From the NCBI GenBank assembly GCA_017795005.1, contig CP051242.1, positions 1 to 64,000 on the forward strand: 64,000 nt of DNA, written 5' to 3'. Positions 1,709 through 23,249 of this stretch are shown in pieces. The translations under genes were made by a program, and so were the position numbers. How positions within the stretch are numbered: position 1 is the first letter of the stretch; the number at the start of each line of letters is the position of its first letter. This DNA comes from Balneolaceae bacterium (GTDB lineage Bacteria; Bacteroidota; Rhodothermia; Balneolales; Balneolaceae). Under the pieces are notes generated by a model that had not been told where the DNA came from, made no database searches, and was given only the letters and a program-made list of their open reading frames with translations.

Positions 1709-2143
1709 GCAGTAGCCAGTTTGATGGAATTATTTAAACTTTGACGGATTTTTCATCATAAAACCAAGTAGATTTCCAACTTCGGCATATTTTCCTGAAA
1801 GGTTGACTTTAGTTTCTTCGCTAATGTACCCGCAATTATAAGAAAAATCTATCCAAACAAGTGTTTCGCTACACTCGGCGTCACAATCCGAAAGTTTACT
1901 TATGAAATGTTTTGGATAGATTCTTTTTCTATACCCTTCAGCAAAATTAGCACACACCGATCTGGATGATCTGCGTATTTGGTCGGTCAAGGAATACTGT
2001 TCGTCTTTTGGAAAGTTTTTTGTTAAATGAAAAATCTCCATTGCTAGCTCATATGCTAGTTGGTAAGCTTTCAAATCTTTAAATCCCTGACTCATCTCCA
2101 CCTCATTTTCTAAAATAATTAAATACTGCAAACTGGCTACTGC
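1709..2143. repeat. Single-gene cassette bracketed by a 15-nt perfect inverted repeat
   Basis: The left arm GCAGTAGCCAGTTTG (1709-1723) is the exact reverse complement of the right arm CAAACTGGCTACTGC (2129-2143). Between them lies one small gene (four-helix-bundle protein) and almost nothing else: the left arm begins 6 bases after the gene's stop codon and the right arm lies 33 bases before its start. The arms contain drifting copies of one short word (CAGTA, GCAGTA, GCCAGT). No target-site duplication is obvious. Mobility is inferred, not shown. Confidence 0.7.
1730..2095 (-). CDS. Four-helix-bundle protein (S23 / 23S rRNA IVS-type family)
   Basis: Small helical protein of 121 residues in the family of proteins encoded in intervening sequences of bacterial 23S rRNA genes, which also includes Avd of diversity-generating retroelements. 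Family hallmarks are the start GFKDLKAYQLAYELAMEI, then LTDQIRRSSRSVCANFAEGY and a Glu-rich third helix. I chose the ATG at 2095 over the upstream ATG at 2131 because a strong Shine-Dalgarno (GAGGTGG) precedes it and homologues start there. It is not inside an rRNA gene here, and no reverse transcriptase is nearby. The molecular role of solitary members is unknown. It is bracketed by inverted repeats. Confidence 0.88.
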   Translation of the reverse strand: MSQGFKDLKAYQLAYELAMEIFHLTKNFPKDEQYSLTDQIRRSSRSVCANFAEGYRKRIYPKHFISKLSDCDAECSETLVWIDFSYNCGYISEETKVNLSGKYAEVGNLLGFMMKNPSKFK

Positions 2144-13285: not shown

Positions 13286-15457
13286 TTACTTCTTACTCGC
13301 CAGATAAAATAACTGCATAATGCGTAGCTCATCGTAACCGATTTGTTTGTTCAGCAAATCGTAGACCGGACGGAGCATTAGCGGACTTTTCTCATCCATC
13401 GCCTTCATCACCTGATCGCGTTGTCGATCTGAAAGAGAGGATGCCTGCAACAACCCATCCAATCGAAGATCATTGCCCTCATCCAGATATTTCTTTAAAT
13501 GAGTAAGTATGGTGACTTCTTTCACACCGTGTTCTTCTGCAAGTAATTTAATGGATTCCCCTTCATTGAAGGCTTCCGCAACAATCTGGTGTTTTTCGGT
13601 TGCAGTCGTTTTTTTGATTTTCTTTTGAAGCGATTTCTGCCTCTCCATGATATCATGTTCGGCAGTAAAAGTTTTAATAATTCCTATAAAAGAATCTCCA
13701 AATTTCTCCTTTTTTACTTTTCCAACTCCATATAAAGCCTCAAGCGCATCTTTATTCTGAGGAAAGTAATAAGCCATTTCTATGAGCGTAGTATCTGGAA
13801 AAATTGCATAAGGAGGCACATCATCAGCATCAGCAAGTTCTTTTCTCTTCACACGAAGTAATTCGAAAAGTTCTTCATTGTAGTTGTTCTCTACATCACT
13901 CGAAGTCCGGACAATAGTTTCTCCATCTATAGCTACATCGGTTCGATCCATAGTACCAAACACATTTTCATTTCCTTTCAATACCTGATGTCCCCGATCT
14001 TCCATCACCAGTACTCCGTATTCTCCTTTGCTGATATAATTCTGACGGAGTAATAATCTGGATAATTGAGTCCACTGATCCTTCGACCATTCCATTCCAA
14101 TTCCATAAGTCGAAATCTGATCATGCTCGTGTTCCAAAACCTTCTGATTTTTCGAGCCGCGGAGAATATCAATTACATGTCCGGCACCAAATGACTCTTC
14201 ACTCTTGATCATACAGCTCATAAACTTTTGAGCCTGAATGGTCATGTCTTCTACATCATCATCAACCGACAAGCAGTTGTCGCACATTCCGCATTCATCA
14301 TTAGGATAGGTCTCTCCAAAATAATCGAGCAATGGTTTACGACGGCAATCTAACGATTCAAGATATTTTACCAATTCCTTTAAGTGATTTTCAGCAACCT
14401 CTTTCTCATTACCGCTTTTCTGATTAATGAAATACTTAATCTTTTGAGTATCAGAATAACCAAAAAGAAGTATGCAATCAGATCGAAGACCATCACGGCC
14501 TGCACGACCTATTTGCTGGTAATAGGACTCAATATTTTGAGGCATATCGAAATGAACCACAAAACGAACATTCGGCTTGTTAATCCCCATCCCAAAAGCA
14601 ATCGTTGCTACGATAATCCGAACGTCGTCTCTGATAAACTCTCTTTGATTGATAGACCGCTCTCTGGAATTCAATCCGGCGTGATAAGGCTTCACAGAAT
14701 AGCCTTCCTGATCCAGTAAATACGCAAGTTCATCTACTTGTCTACGGGAAAAACAATAAATAATACCAGACTGGTTTTTTCGTGTATATAGAAAATCCAA
14801 CAACTGATTTTCCGGGTCTTTTTTATCTGCGATTTTCAGAAAAAGATTACTACGATCAAAGCTTGAGATAAAGGCTTCCGAATCTGTTAGATTCAAACTT
14901 TGTTTGATGTCTTCCTGAACTCTTGGTGTAGCTGTAGCGGTAAGTGCTATACAAACTGCTTCAGGGAAATCCTTTCGAAATTCAGTCATTTGTCGGTATT
15001 CCGGGCGGAAATCGTGTCCCCATTCCGAAATACAGTGCGCCTCATCAATGGTAAAGCAATCGATTTGGAGCTGTTTCAACATCTCCCTTGTACGGTCCAT
15101 CATTAGAGTTTCCGGGGCTAAATACAGTAACTTGATATCGCCACGCATCACACGTTTAACATTATAATCATATTCTTCAGGACGAAGCGAGCTATTCAGA
15201 TAAACAGCCGGTATATCGTATTCCCTGAGCTGTTCAACCTGATCTTTCATAAGTGAAATAAGGGGAGAAACAACAATCGTCATCCCTTCAAAAATCATGG
15301 CGGGAATTTGGTAGCAAAGCGATTTACCACCACCGGTTGGCATAATCACCAAGGCATCTTTCTTATCTAGTACCTGTGTAATTGCCGCTTCCTGCTGAAG
15401 TCGGAAGCTATCGTAGCCAAACGTCTCTTTTAAAATACTCTGCGCTCTATTTATCAC
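13286..15457 (-). CDS. recQ: ATP-dependent DNA helicase RecQ
   Basis: 3'-5' superfamily 2 helicase for recombination and fork repair, 723 residues. Walker A MPTGGGKS (about 39-46), DEAH box in TIDEAHCISEWGHDFRP, motif VI QQIGRAGRDG, and a zinc site with Cys in DCRRK and ECGMCDNC. After the winged helix come an HRDC domain (about 530-600) and a C-terminal HTH-type segment (about 625-665). The start is GTG at 15457, because no ATG occurs before the first conserved region. That GTG overlaps the stop of the GxxExxY gene and lies inside its end repeat. Confidence 0.97.
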   Translation of the reverse strand: MINRAQSILKETFGYDSFRLQQEAAITQVLDKKDALVIMPTGGGKSLCYQIPAMIFEGMTIVVSPLISLMKDQVEQLREYDIPAVYLNSSLRPEEYDYNVKRVMRGDIKLLYLAPETLMMDRTREMLKQLQIDCFTIDEAHCISEWGHDFRPEYRQMTEFRKDFPEAVCIALTATATPRVQEDIKQSLNLTDSEAFISSFDRSNLFLKIADKKDPENQLLDFLYTRKNQSGIIYCFSRRQVDELAYLLDQEGYSVKPYHAGLNSRERSINQREFIRDDVRIIVATIAFGMGINKPNVRFVVHFDMPQNIESYYQQIGRAGRDGLRSDCILLFGYSDTQKIKYFINQKSGNEKEVAENHLKELVKYLESLDCRRKPLLDYFGETYPNDECGMCDNCLSVDDDVEDMTIQAQKFMSCMIKSEESFGAGHVIDILRGSKNQKVLEHEHDQISTYGIGMEWSKDQWTQLSRLLLRQNYISKGEYGVLVMEDRGHQVLKGNENVFGTMDRTDVAIDGETIVRTSSDVENNYNEELFELLRVKRKELADADDVPPYAIFPDTTLIEMAYYFPQNKDALEALYGVGKVKKEKFGDSFIGIIKTFTAEHDIMERQKSLQKKIKKTTATEKHQIVAEAFNEGESIKLLAEEHGVKEVTILTHLKKYLDEGNDLRLDGLLQASSLSDRQRDQVMKAMDEKSPLMLRPVYDLLNKQIGYDELRIMQLFYLASKK

Positions 15458-15983
15458 TGATTTCTCTGATTGATAAGATTTTGATTTCCAGACTTTGAGT
15501 TAATAAATCGTTTTGGTCGCAAGCTTTCTTCTCCAAAATTGATTAATAATCCAACTTCCAAATTATAAGCCTTCAAATAGTTAAGAACCTGATTAGCGTG
15601 TCTGCTATTTATCTCGGAAACAGCTTTTAGCTCAAGTACGACTTGCTCATTGATGATAAAATCCGCTCTTCTAGTCCCAATTTGTATTCCATCATAATAT
15701 ACAGGCATTTCAACTTCTCTTGAAAAAGTAATTCCTGTCTTATTCATTTCATGAGCTAGACCTCTTTGATAAATAATTTCCGGATATCCATTTCCGAGGT
15801 AGGCGTGTAACCTCATAGCACATCCAATAATATCTCCAGTAAGCCTGCTAAATTTATATTCTTTATTGACGATTGATCTCATAGCTCTTTAATTAGGATT
15901 AACCTTTTCAAATAATGAGATCAATTAAACCATCAGTCCTTACAATTTGTATTATAATCAGGTCAATCAGAGAAATCTGTGAT
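15453..15983. repeat. Single-gene cassette bracketed by a 21-nt inverted repeat
   Basis: The left arm at 15453-15473 (ATCACTGATTTCTCTGATTG...) and the right arm at 15963-15983 are reverse complements at 20 of 21 positions. Between them is only the GxxExxY gene and an 80-base leader. The left arm contains that gene's stop codon and the recQ GTG start. The arms contain drifting copies of a short word (CTGATTT, CTGATTG). Mobility is inferred. Confidence 0.72.
15454..15882 (-). CDS. GxxExxY protein, PD-(D/E)XK nuclease-like
   Basis: Small protein of 142 residues named for the motif G32-YP-E35-II-Y38. It also has a recognisable PD-(D/E)XK core: D74 in RADFII and E84-L-K86 in VVLELKAV (PF13366 type). 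Nuclease activity is inferred from the fold; the biological role of the family is not established. A Shine-Dalgarno-like AAAGAG precedes the ATG. The stop overlaps the recQ start by 4 bases. The gene is bracketed by an inverted repeat that runs into its own 3' end. Confidence 0.9.
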   Translation of the reverse strand: MRSIVNKEYKFSRLTGDIIGCAMRLHAYLGNGYPEIIYQRGLAHEMNKTGITFSREVEMPVYYDGIQIGTRRADFIINEQVVLELKAVSEINSRHANQVLNYLKAYNLEVGLLINFGEESLRPKRFINSKSGNQNLINQRNQ

Positions 15984-16000
15984 CAAAAAGAGATAAAACG

Positions 16001-18829
16001 TTACTTACTCAAATACAAGCTCTTAAACTCATAAGGTTTTTTGAAATGTTCATCCTCAAAATCATCGGCAAAATAAATACTTTCGCCAGTGGACTTCATT
16101 TCAGGGCCCAATTCTTTTTTCACACCCGGAAATTTATCGAATGGAAATACCGGTTCTTTAATCGCCCAGTTTTTGAGCTTAGATTTTAAATCGAAGTCTT
16201 TGAGTTTGGCGCCCAGCATCACTTTAGTTCCGATGGCTGCCTCCGGAACCTGATTGGCTTTCGCAAGGAACGGTACCGTTCTGGTTGTTCTTGGATTGGC
16301 TTCAAGTACATACACTTTTTCGTCTTTTACTGCATATTGCACATTCAGAAATCCCTGGATCTTCATCGCCTCTGCAATGCGTTTCTGATAAGATGCGATC
16401 GTATCCTGTACTTCCTGGCTCAATGAGTACGGTGGAAGTACAGCTGTAGAATCTCCGGAATGAACTCCTGCCGGCTCAATGTGCTGCATCATTCCTGAAA
16501 TATGAAGCTGGTCTCCATCATAAACCGAATCCACATCAACCTCAATAGCATGCTCCAGATATTTGTCGATCAGGAAAGCGTTTTCGGGATGAGTTTTCAG
16601 AATATTTGCTACATACTTTTCAAGTTCCTCCTGTTTTACAGCAATTCTCATTCCCTGCCCCCCAAGAACATAACTTGGGCGTATCAATACAGGGTACCCG
16701 ATTCTTTCCGCAATTTCGAGTGCGCCATCTACATTGGTTGCCGTTCCATATTGAGGAAAGGGGATATCAAGGCGAATAAGCAGATCAGAAAATTCTCCCC
16801 GATCTTCAGCAAAATCGATCATCTCAAAATCGGTACCGAAAATCTTGATACCGGCTTCCACAAAACGCTTACCAAGTTTAAGCGCGGTCTGTCCACCCAC
16901 CTGAATAATCACTCCTTCTGCTTTTTCGTGCTCATAAATATCCAGCACCCGTTCCCAGTATACCGGTTCGAAGTACAGTTTATCCGCAATATCGAAATCG
17001 GTGGAAACAGTCTCCGGGTTACAGTTAATCATGATAGCTTCATAACCCATCTCCTTAGTTGCTAACGTGGCATGCACACAAGAATAATCGAACTCGATTC
17101 CCTGTCCGATTCGATTCGGACCACTTCCAAGAATGATTACTTTCTTTTTGTCTGTAACAATGCTTTCATTCTCTCCTTCATAGGCAGAATAATAGTAAGG
17201 CGTTTGCGCCGGGAATTCTGCGGCACACGTGTCTACAAGTTTGAAGGAAGGCTTTAGTCCCAATTCCAATCGTTTAGCTCTTACCTCATTTTCAGTAACT
17301 GTTGTGCCACTTTTGCTTGACAACCACGCTATTTGGGCGTCTGAAAAACCTGCCTGCTTTAATTCATAAAAATCATCTTTTGAAATTTCGTCCAGACTTT
17401 GACCTTCTGTTCGGTTTTCAAGAGAAACCATGTATCTAATTTGCTGAAGAAACCAAGCATCTACTTTAGTAATGTCTGCTATTTCTTCGACAGAAGCCCC
17501 AAGCTTGAACGCATTGCGAATCTGCATAGAACGGTCCCAATAAGGTTTCATCAGACGTTCCCGAACCTGTTTTCTATCAATTTCTTCATATCCATCCGCT
17601 CCAAGACCGTCACGACCTACTTCCATACTTTGCCAGGCTTTATTCAAAGCTTCAGGAAAGTTTCTACCAATACTCATTACTTCGCCAACAGCTTTCATCT
17701 GAGTTGATAACTCCTCATCCACGCCAGGAAATTTATCGAAGTTAAAACGAGGGACTTTACATACCACGTAATCAATGGAAGGTTCGAAACAGGCTGAAGT
17801 AGTTCCGGTTATTTGGTTCTTTAATTCGTCCAGTGTATAACCTACCGCTAATTTAGTAGCTACCTTTGCAATTGGATATCCAGTCGCTTTTGATGCCAGC
17901 GCAGAAGACCGACTCACCCTTGGGTTTATTTCAATGGCCACGAAACGGTCGCTTCCCGGTTCCATAGCAAACTGCACATTACATCCTCCGGCAAAGGTAC
18001 CAATTGAACGCATCATCTTGATGGCTGCATCACGAAGTACCTGAAGTTGTTTATCCGTTAATGTTTGAGTCGGAGCTACCGTAACAGAATCGCCTGTATG
18101 AACACCCATAGGATCCATATTCTCAATGGAGCAAATAATGACCACATTGTCATTGGCATCTCTCAATAGTTCAAGCTCGTATTCTTTCCACCCAAAAATG
18201 GATTCTTCAATCAACACCGAATGAACTGGGCTCATTTCCAGTCCGCGAAGCACCATTTTATCGAAATCTTCTTCATTCCAAACAATTCCGCCTCCAGCTC
18301 CACCCATGGTAAAGGAAGGACGAATTACTATTGGTAGTCCACCTAATTCTTCTTTGATTTCTTTTGCGTCCAGAAGTGATTCTGCTTGCCGACTACGACA
18401 TTGCATAATCCCAATTTCTTCCATCTTGTCGCGGAACAGCTGTCGGTCTTCTGTTAGTTCGACTGCATCAATATCAACACCAATAATCTTGATTCCCCGC
18501 TCATCCCAGAAACCTTGTTTTTCTAAATCACGGCATAAATTTAAACCCGTTTGGCCACCCATTGTTGGAAGTACAGCGTCCGGTTTTTCTTTGTCCACAA
18601 TTTCCCTGATCGAAGCTGTGGTCATAGGAAGCATATAAATGGCATCCGCCATGATTGGATCTGTCATTATAGTTGCCGGGTTCGAATTGATAAGAACAAT
18701 TTCATACCCTTCTTCCTGAAGTGAGCGGCAAGCCTGAGAACCTGAATAATCAAACTCACACGCTTGACCAATCACAATTGGTCCGGATCCGATGATGAGA
18801 ATTTTATGTATATCGTCGCGTCTTGGCAT
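16001..18829 (-). CDS. carB: Carbamoyl-phosphate synthase large chain, without MGS domain
   Basis: Makes carbamoyl phosphate from bicarbonate, ATP and ammonia for arginine and pyrimidine synthesis. Two ATP-grasp halves are present ([12 protein letters not shown] in the first; [12 protein letters not shown] in the second), with the oligomerisation segment between. It has 942 residues and ends about 30 residues after GPEMKSTGE, where E. coli CarB (about 1073) continues into the MGS-like allosteric domain. That domain is absent, so UMP/ornithine regulation should differ. From memory, shorter CarB proteins occur in other Bacteroidota. carA lies 12 bases upstream. Confidence 0.97.
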
Positions 18830-20692: not shown

Positions 20693-20710
20693 TTCTAAAT
20701 TATGAATGTT

Positions 20711-20756
20711 AAATGCTCAATGTTAAATAAGGCGTACTATTTAACATTGAGCATTT
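20711..20756. repeat. Word-type palindrome 3' of the acylase gene
   Basis: Perfect 19-bp inverted repeat AAATGCTCAATGTTAAATA (20711-20729) and its complement (20738-20756) around an 8-base loop, 4 bases after the acylase stop codon. The arms reiterate TGTTAAAT. No T-run follows. Confidence 0.75.
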
Positions 20757-20760
20757 AGAA

Positions 20761-23178
20761 TTAATCATTGGTATTAAATTTTAAACTGTACTTATAATCC
20801 ATTGGTGGTTCTTTATAAAAATTCAATTCATAAAGCTCTCCTGTTCGCCAGTTTTCTAACATAGAATCGTAATTCGGTGAACCCGGATTTCCGGAAGCTC
20901 CTCCGGGATAAACTCCCCATCCTTTTACCTCAGGTCCTAGCTCTACCACCATTCTCCAGGAAGGCCCCCAGGTTCCTCTTGTTGCATTAATGGATTCTGA
21001 GTTGCCACTTGAAAACAAGTTCTGAGCTCCAAAGCCTGGGATAAAGGCTATATGATCGACATCGTTGTTAATCACAACTCCCCAATTCCAGTTTTCTCCA
21101 AAATCTCCATAAGCGTTTGTTAGTTCTTCTACGGTCTCTTTGAATGCATCAGTTACTACTCTTTCTCTGGTTTCTATTTCTTCTGTTTCGATGTTATCAA
21201 AGAACTCTAAGTCTTCTTCTGCTTGTATTACTTCAACGAGCCGGTCGCGGGAAGGCCAGCGAAGAGAAGCATCTGTAGAATTGTACTCGTCACTCAAAAT
21301 GGCATAATAGAAATTACTCCACCACCATCGGAAAATTCCCGGAGCTTTAAGATCAGAATTGTTGAAGAAATCCCATTTTTCAACTTCAGCAAGAATTTCC
21401 AGTTCAGCATCTGATAATCTTTCCCTGTTAATCCAGTCAACCATTTCCGGGAGTATCGTGGCCGCATGGTAGCTATAGTTATCCATTTGCATTTTCCGGA
21501 TATCATCAGCTGTAATATCCTCCATTTCTTCTAACAACTCGTTAATTCTTCTTCCCCTCTCAAATGGTGCAGAATCATCGTCCAGATAATAAGGATAATC
21601 TTCCGCAGCGGACTCCTGATTAGCTGAACTAACAAACCCTCTCTCTGGATTCTTAATATGAGGATTTTGTTCAAAAGGAATCCAACCCTGCCAGTCATAA
21701 AGCGGATCAGATCCATCACTTACCGTTCTTCCCTGATACTTCCACTTATTAGGTAGTTTTCCAGTTATCCAAATCCCTATATCTCCTTCAGAGTTAGCAA
21801 AAATAAAGTTTTGTGTAGGAGCAACATAATGAGAACCGGCTTCCCTGAAGTCTTCAAAAGTCTCCATTGTATTGAAACCGAAGAATGTTTTCAGATCATT
21901 GGATGGTTCATGTGCAATCCATCTCAATGCGTAGTACGAAGGGTTCCCTTCTTCATTAATTTCCGACTTGAACTCCGATACTGGTCCGTGATGAGTATAA
22001 AATACGGTATCTAACACCGTCTCTTCGCCTCTCACTATAATCTCCTCAATTCGCATGCTCGTAGGTTTCCATTCTCCATCATGCCAATATTCTTGTTTTG
22101 AAGCATCTTTGAATCTGATTTCATACCAATCCATTACGTCTGTTCCGGAATTAGTTGTTCCCCACGCTGCTTTTTCATTATACCCGACGATAACACCAGG
22201 ACTACCTTGCAGTGAAACTCCATAGGTGTTGATACCCGGAGCATTTAGTTGTACTTCGTACCAAATAGATGGAAGAGTTAATCCGAGGTGCGGATCATTA
22301 GCAAGAATCGGATATCCGGATGCCGTCTTGCTTCCATCAACTGCCCAGTTATTGCTACCAACTCCTTCCGGGCGTTCAAACTCTTCTAACTCAAGAGCAA
22401 GCGCAGGTTCGAATATAGAATCCGGGGCCTGAACTGGAAGAGGTTCAAAATCCCATACTCTGGATGGAGGAATGATTGGATCGTTTAATTCCGGTTTAAT
22501 GGTGAAAAATTTTTCGATAAAATCGTCTCCAAAGAACATTGCGGTATTGCTTGTTCTCGCATCACTGTTCCCTCCGGCAAGAGTACGGGTCATATTTTTA
22601 AGTAGATGTGCCGTTTTAATGAGTTCCCATTCTTCAGGTTCAAAATCTAAAATCTTGTATTCTAAGGGATAATCTTTTGGAGAAAGGGATGAGATATATG
22701 CATTAACCCCATCTGAATACGCATTTAATGCCGACCAAATTTCCTGATCCTGCTTTATAAACTCGATTGCTTTCTCAGCTCCGTAAGGCATTCCTAATCT
22801 ACGTGTACTTAAATCTCTGCTTAGAGTTCTTGATCCAAGTCTCTCAGAAAGTCGACCAGCTGCATCATAGGTTTGCATTTCCATTTGAAACAATCGGTCG
22901 CGGGCTGTTATGTAGCCTTGAACGAAATAGAGGTCATTTTTAGATTCTGCAAAAATGTGAGGCACTCTTCGCTCATCAAAATAAACTGACACCTCACCCT
23001 TTACTCCATCCAATAAAAACTCCGCAGATTGAGGCTCAGATAGTTCTGCATTAGCCCAGAAACCGGCATCCGGATCAAAAAACTTTCCCAATGGGGGAAT
23101 TGAACCAAATTTGGTATTGAGTGAGATCGTAAGAACGATCAGTATTATCAGAGAAGTAACAGGCTTTAAAAAGCGCAT
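20761..23178 (-). CDS. Penicillin acylase family protein (Ntn hydrolase)
   Basis: N-terminal-nucleophile amidohydrolase of 805 residues with an N-terminal hydrophobic segment (about 7-22) for export. The sequence VPHIFAESKNDLYFVQGY followed by ARDRLFQMEMQTYDAAGRLSE matches the alpha-chain start of the family. Autocatalytic cleavage is expected before S275 in EGVGSNNWAV, making Ser the N-terminal nucleophile of the beta chain. Natural substrates may be acylated amines such as N-acyl homoserine lactones or other amides (inference). Hairpins flank the gene at both ends. Confidence 0.93.
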   Translation of the reverse strand: MRFLKPVTSLIILIVLTISLNTKFGSIPPLGKFFDPDAGFWANAELSEPQSAEFLLDGVKGEVSVYFDERRVPHIFAESKNDLYFVQGYITARDRLFQMEMQTYDAAGRLSERLGSRTLSRDLSTRRLGMPYGAEKAIEFIKQDQEIWSALNAYSDGVNAYISSLSPKDYPLEYKILDFEPEEWELIKTAHLLKNMTRTLAGGNSDARTSNTAMFFGDDFIEKFFTIKPELNDPIIPPSRVWDFEPLPVQAPDSIFEPALALELEEFERPEGVGSNNWAVDGSKTASGYPILANDPHLGLTLPSIWYEVQLNAPGINTYGVSLQGSPGVIVGYNEKAAWGTTNSGTDVMDWYEIRFKDASKQEYWHDGEWKPTSMRIEEIIVRGEETVLDTVFYTHHGPVSEFKSEINEEGNPSYYALRWIAHEPSNDLKTFFGFNTMETFEDFREAGSHYVAPTQNFIFANSEGDIGIWITGKLPNKWKYQGRTVSDGSDPLYDWQGWIPFEQNPHIKNPERGFVSSANQESAAEDYPYYLDDDSAPFERGRRINELLEEMEDITADDIRKMQMDNYSYHAATILPEMVDWINRERLSDAELEILAEVEKWDFFNNSDLKAPGIFRWWWSNFYYAILSDEYNSTDASLRWPSRDRLVEVIQAEEDLEFFDNIETEEIETRERVVTDAFKETVEELTNAYGDFGENWNWGVVINNDVDHIAFIPGFGAQNLFSSGNSESINATRGTWGPSWRMVVELGPEVKGWGVYPGGASGNPGSPNYDSMLENWRTGELYELNFYKEPPMDYKYSLKFNTND

Positions 23179-23196
23179 TCTTAATTTTAAATTATG

Positions 23197-23237
23197 AATT
23201 TTGAATTATGTTGATTTAACATTCATAATTCAAAATT
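23197..23237. repeat. Word-type palindrome 5' of the acylase gene
   Basis: Perfect 14-bp inverted repeat AATTTTGAATTATG (23197-23210) and CATAATTCAAAATT (23224-23237), placed just after the stop of the amidinohydrolase gene. The sequence around it repeats GAATT/AATTATG words. It is very AT-rich, so chance palindromy contributes. Confidence 0.6.
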
Positions 23238-23249
23238 CAAAATTAATCA

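Follow-up and report, generated by a model that had tools for sequence, protein, structure and literature searches.

A nuclease-fold gene of the GxxExxY family, located between carB and recQ in a bacterium of the Balneolaceae, is enclosed by inverted arms of short repeated words that are inherited together with it, and related hosts hold different versions of this unit, or none, at the same junction. Its leader contains a promoter-like motif that also precedes genes for DNA uptake. We give about an even chance to the explanation that best accommodates these observations, namely that the unit is a selfish mobile cassette of a single gene, which would be expressed along with the DNA-uptake regulon and would spread through homing-like exchange.

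Organization of the cassette

The window, by which we mean the whole stretch of 64,000 nucleotides analysed here, contains a cassette of approximately 0.5 kb sited between carB and recQ (Table 1). As originally predicted, a 21-nt inverted repeat, paired at 20 of its 21 positions, encloses the GxxExxY gene together with its leader, leaving 80 bases from the arm to the ATG. The pairing was found to reach beyond this repeat, to 36 nt at 81%. At the downstream end, the stop codon of the nuclease gene and the start of recQ share bases (GTGA) that lie within the right arm. Since the promoter-like motif lies between the arms, a transcript begun there would contain the right arm and lack the left one. 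Neither this motif nor the exchange of cassettes described below figured in the original prediction.

Table 1. Features of the cassette, its neighbours and the comparison cassette in the window.
Feature	Position	Strand	Remarks
Left (upstream) arm	15963..15983	(-)	Extended match 15951-15986
Right (downstream) arm	15453..15473	(-)	Contains GxxExxY stop codon and recQ GTG start; extended match 15450-15485
Promoter-like motif TTGTAAGGA-N16-TCTCA	15916..15945	(-)	In leader, between the arms
GxxExxY gene	15454..15882	(-)	142 aa; PD-(D/E)XK nuclease fold, RecB/Cas4 type (predicted)
recQ	13286..15457	(-)	Downstream neighbour
carB	16001..18829	(-)	Upstream neighbour
Four-helix bundle gene (TIGR02436)	1730..2131	(-)	Comparison cassette, like layout

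The packaging is as had been claimed: one small nuclease-fold gene, repeats at the ends and no transposase. The proposed likeness to the four-helix cassette also held, 11 of the 14 distinct four-helix genes of the genome having such arms. These gene counts take account of the contig end, which repeats the first 24,387 bases (window positions 1-24387 correspond to G000:C1:3722685-3747071), probably as an assembly overlap of a circular chromosome; the corrected numbers are therefore three GxxExxY genes rather than four, and 14 four-helix genes rather than 15. The arms of the carB–recQ cassette are nearly unique in the genome, and the idea that they are copies of a genome-wide repeat was rejected. 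No other copy of the 21-mer occurs in the window at up to three mismatches (0.01 expected), and a search with the 19-base arm core at up to two mismatches returned only weak matches from the rest of the genome.

Among 50 scorable open reading frames in the window, three reached an arm score of at least 13: the GxxExxY gene, the four-helix gene of Table 1 and an open reading frame at 20761-23178. The last has matching ends at 20698-20757 and 23190-23244 (score 17.5), and local imperfect palindromes are also present in the DNA around both of its ends.

The GxxExxY protein as a predicted nuclease

In profile searches, the GxxExxY protein scored over the cut-offs for TIGR04256 (134.9 bits versus 35) and for PF13366 (PDDEXK_3; 128.4 bits versus 22), the latter being its sole Pfam match above cut-off. 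The D74 and E84-x-K86 residues to which the original prediction had pointed are present (as E84-L-K86 in this protein) and are conserved: D74, E84, K86, Q98 and Y102 do not vary among 56 sequences and stand in the right order for a QxxxY nuclease of the RecB/Cas4 type. The G32-x-x-E35-x-x-Y38 motif is likewise invariant in the 56 relatives. A structure model of the protein (pLDDT 88.6) most closely resembles the Cas4-type SSO0001 (4ic1; Foldseek E 1e-4, Z 9.8). Together, these results argue for a PD-(D/E)XK fold of the RecB/Cas4 branch, and nuclease activity is predicted. Other fold matches, including restriction enzymes and Hjc, gave Z scores within the middling background and were set aside; identity with a known defence gene was also rejected, the matches, mainly to Cas4b, being weak and sub-domain.

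Purifying selection acts on the gene (omega 0.03-0.25). For one pair of cassettes, its synonymous divergence was 0.67 compared with 1.97 for carB, a difference that fits a later exchange.

Joint inheritance of arms and gene

GxxExxY and four-helix genes are widespread, and neither is known to have an assigned function. The GxxExxY family is present in 196 of 392 genomes of the phylum. When public genomes were scanned, the 80 top-ranking loci yielded 73 genes of the window's subfamily that could be scored, mostly from Bacteroidota and also from Anabaena; the arm samples are best matches to the queries and no random draw. An arm score of at least 13 was obtained for 53 of the 73 genes, as opposed to 6 of 280 neighbour genes in the same loci. 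In loci from the wider phylum, 17 of 25 GxxExxY genes had arms at a score of 15, compared with 1 of 38 comparison genes. The expectation that every GxxExxY gene in the phylum would have similar arms therefore holds as a rule, but not universally.

Arms in the window's subfamily often have TGTCTGAAC on the outside and then TGATT words spaced roughly nine bases apart, whereas those beside GPGLLE-type proteins are made up of CACAGAG-like words. Genes for G-x-G-F/Y proteins had 47 TGATT arms and no GAG arms, genes for GPGLLE proteins none and 31, so that neither a TGATT arm with a GPGLLE protein nor a GAG arm with a G-x-G-F/Y protein was seen; this association largely reflects one deep split. When four word labels were placed on a tree of 99 proteins, 16 changes were required, compared with 43.5 for shuffled labels, and none of 200 shuffles gave a number as low. 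Since the type of word in the arms tracks the protein clade, the arms travel with the gene, the two being inherited jointly.

A phage origin was rejected: there was no match in phage records, and the family was met in one viral contig and eight plasmid records. At one locus, in Spirosoma oryzae (L246), the arm sequence recurs in several nested copies on both sides of the gene.

Replacement and loss at the carB–recQ junction

We read 41 carB–recQ junctions of the bacterial family, window included. A nuclease match is present in 16 of them, two of which (L076, L093) hold truncated genes. Empty junctions, which the original prediction had proposed to seek in relatives, do exist (G006, L074; 15 nt). 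Remnants, either one arm or the motif without a gene, persist at some of the other junctions. At this site, the left and right arms of the same cassette are more similar to each other (14.4) than arms compared across genomes (10.4; 0 of 20,000 permutations).

The history of the cassette differs from that of its flanks. In L070 and L077, the proteins encoded on either side are 95% identical and the nucleases 48%; at the DNA level, identity is 85% in carB, 78% in recQ and 54% in the cassette, and the borders of divergence are sharp, coinciding with the stop codon of carB and the start of recQ. Over the junctions, nuclease distances showed no significant correlation with flank distances (Mantel correlation 0.10, p 0.18). 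Purely vertical descent at this site is rejected on account of this disagreement between cassette and flanks. Related hosts hold different cassettes between carB and recQ, which have been replaced and lost.

The order carB–GxxExxY–recQ without arms, which the original prediction had named as evidence to the contrary if found in distant relatives, occurs in a mild form, in four species of one genus with nearly identical flanks in which the arms have decayed. Retention of the gene in these species implies that, after its fixation, it can do without the arms. In all four (L063-L066), the GxxExxY reading frame crosses what was the right arm and continues uninterrupted into recQ, which points to a possible nuclease–RecQ fusion.

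Two further observations concern this junction. A Y1 transposase gene stands downstream of the motif in L085 and L088, where relatives hold GxxExxY. In L069, from the same genus as the window host, the 3' end of carB, an arm and the motif are tandemly duplicated beside the cassette.

A second site in Mucilaginibacter

Cassettes of the same subfamily were also found in Mucilaginibacter (the genus of L234), where they lie between ruvX and a methyltransferase-like gene (gene names as read from the sequence). A sister genome, L356, is empty at this site, with flanks 94-96% identical; it differs over the whole intergenic stretch, and neither a target-site duplication nor an exact end is definable. 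Four of the 17 cassettes at this second site are inverted, L374 and L401 being counted as one locus, and orientation changes four times on the tree, at least two of these changes being forced by well-supported branches. Exchange is apparent here too: in L384 and L386 the flanking proteins are 95% identical, whereas the nucleases are 65% identical and come from two clades. The cassette in the window is not a local oddity, but belongs to a common kind, whose members are often exchanged or inverted at junctions like these.

Tandem pairs of cassettes exist (L335/L342). In nine genomes we found no near-identical copies at different places within one genome, the one close pair being a tandem duplication, so that no recent jump is seen.

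Outside its own arm, L386 retains a short stretch left over from an arm of the other type. In L370, L378 and L396, the same Mucilaginibacter junction is occupied by an unrelated gene, whose protein begins like MEKKNLFEEIKHLNSIGQEYW, which makes the junction a hot spot for genes of different kinds.

A motif in common with DNA-uptake genes

Exact matches to a stricter form of the promoter-like motif, TTGTAAGGA-N14-GGTCNNAC, number 58 over nine genomes of the family, three of which contribute none, compared with zero for the reversed control. With one mismatch allowed, 52 sites were counted in two genomes versus two control sites. Genes 3' of the motif include comEC, YifB/ComM, radC and ssb, as named by NCBIfam, the ComEC fragment being over the ComEC N-terminal cut-off alone. 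The motif also precedes genes for an integron integrase, RAYT and Y1 transposases, and DUF559, GIY-YIG, four-helix and GxxExxY proteins. Nine of the 16 carB–recQ cassettes carry it with exact spacing, and several others with a spacing of 15 or 17. The other two GxxExxY genes of the window's genome are without it, and few of the GPGLLE-type copies read in the family (two) have it.

Arms accompany some classes of motif-driven gene and not others. They were scored on 9 of 10 four-helix, 5 of 7 DUF559, 4 of 5 RAYT/Y1, 2 of 6 GIY-YIG and 1 of 1 GxxExxY genes, as against 0 of 12 comM, radC, ssb, integrase and nucleotidyltransferase genes (comEC was unscorable). Judged by sequence, the arms of DUF559 and RAYT genes are mostly hairpin-like, whereas those of four-helix and GxxExxY genes are not.

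In two genera (L422:956-2377 and L432), one copy of the motif has an ECF-like sigma gene upstream, whose matches to ECF sigma factors are below cut-off (best E 5e-11). The gene 3' of this copy encodes a protein with TPR repeats and what looks like a membrane segment, and is anti-sigma-like. The motif is likely to be an ECF promoter, linked to the sigma factor by position only, and the L422/L432 sigma gene is a candidate regulator of the DNA-uptake regulon. Our searches turned up no competence regulator for this bacterial group.

Proposed mechanism and alternatives

We envisage a mobile cassette that combines a RecB/Cas4-type nuclease gene and a promoter-like site with two inverted arms of short repeated words. 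It occupies intergenic sites beside stop and start codons and is there repeatedly replaced by another cassette, lost or, at the second site, flipped. Since the GxxExxY gene has the motif of DNA-uptake genes, we propose that it is expressed at competence, so that the nuclease would be made as single-stranded DNA enters the cell. The enzyme may then cut at or near an arm-like sequence, or at an arm hairpin, on an allele lacking the same cassette. For the original suggestion that the nuclease could act on the repeat, the agreement between arm type and protein clade offers indirect support. Repair from the incoming DNA would copy the cassette in, a homing-like exchange by way of putative natural transformation. 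On this scheme the cassette would be a minimal selfish element, spreading as bacteria take up DNA. Replacement as such could also come about by differential loss from tandem pairs, of which L335/L342 is an instance, or by homologous recombination in the flanks without any nuclease. Counting against the scheme are also the lack of the motif in the other two copies of this genome, the decayed arms in four species that retain the gene, and the lack of any sign of a recent jump.

It is conceivable, albeit unlikely, that the arms act at the level of RNA, as they do in 23S rRNA intervening sequences: read-through from carB would pair the arms, RNase III would excise the insert and leave the carB and recQ messages unharmed, and the gene would be a passenger. 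There is good precedent in Coxiella (PMC4990558), RNA folding of the entire stretch pairs the two arms (z = -3.1), each left arm resembles the right arm of its own genome, and four-helix cassettes of like layout encode the intervening-sequence protein family PF05635. However, a transcript from the cassette's own motif, lying as it does between the arms, would be without the left arm, and the RNA reading leaves unexplained both the inverted cassettes and the tracking of nuclease clade by arm words. A known RNA was rejected, an Rfam search of the stretch giving no match.

We regard it as quite unlikely that the cassette is a non-autonomous element whose arms are used in trans by another enzyme, for example a RAYT/Y1 transposase of the same regulon, with the nuclease as cargo or accessory. 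RAYT/Y1 genes do have the same motif and are flanked by arms of their own, and two relatives carry a Y1 transposase in the carB–recQ junction, but RAYT and DUF559 arms are mostly palindromic, resembling REP hairpins, which GxxExxY arms are not, and the latter track the GxxExxY clade. A role for the nuclease as a host DNA-uptake gene that trims incoming or displaced strands, with the arms as relics of its arrival, seems distinctly improbable in view of its patchy presence (half of the phylum's genomes, as given above), the frequent loss and decay at the carB–recQ site and its replacement by much diverged versions. Consistent with such a role are the motif common to comEC, comM, radC and ssb, purifying selection, the Cas4/RecB-type fold, and the retention of the gene, fused to recQ, where the arms have decayed.

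Comparison with known systems

The nearest known kind of element is the 23S rRNA intervening sequence. That of Coxiella burnetii has a 28-bp terminal stem and heptameric repeats, and is excised by RNase III (PMC4990558). Intervening sequences with an S23p/four-helix open reading frame resemble the cassette in size (approximately 0.4-0.55 kb), in having one small open reading frame, terminal inverted repeats and short tandem words beside the reading frame (the heptamers in Coxiella), and in the absence of a transposase. The cassette differs in encoding a nuclease-fold protein rather than S23p/four-helix, in its intergenic position between the protein genes carB and recQ rather than within 23S rRNA, and in the DNA-uptake-type promoter motif between its arms.

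Free-standing homing endonuclease genes share with the cassette a small nuclease gene at one intergenic site, absence from some relatives and exchange at the same site, the cassette being known from patterns of presence, absence and exchange alone. No RecB/Cas4-type homing nuclease with word-type arms was found in the literature searched. RAYT elements similarly comprise a single small gene between inverted units, and in this bacterial family have the same promoter motif; they combine a Y1/HUH enzyme with palindromic REP hairpins, whereas the cassette combines a PD-(D/E)XK protein with non-palindromic arms. Cas4/RecB nucleases such as SSO0001 have the fold, the D/E/K centre and QxxxY in common with the cassette protein, which differs in being a stand-alone protein of 142 aa with no CRISPR link at the loci read. 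As in transposons and MITEs, the inverted termini are inherited with the element.

In the portions of the literature available to our search, GxxExxY is scarcely named, with a passing mention as a gene beside a reverse transcriptase, absence there being no proof. Seen as units of ends plus gene with a recognizable promoter, GxxExxY and four-helix genes acquire a testable biology. A broader and more tentative proposal, which we think somewhat doubtful, is that in Balneola-type bacteria a guild of cassettes (GxxExxY, four-helix, DUF559, RAYT and some GIY-YIG) is governed with the transformation genes by one ECF-like sigma switch. Its elements would cut, fold and copy at the entry of single-stranded DNA, with transformation as the transmission route and the arms as enzyme targets.

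If expression is timed to DNA uptake, selfish elements would be tied directly to the control of natural transformation, which bears on whose interest transformation serves. The most surprising part is the motif common to cassette families and DNA-uptake genes, from which a regulon can be predicted, and a candidate sigma factor named, for this bacterial group. At L125, L136, L148 and L160, integron-type integrase genes have the comEC/ssb motif and are without arms.
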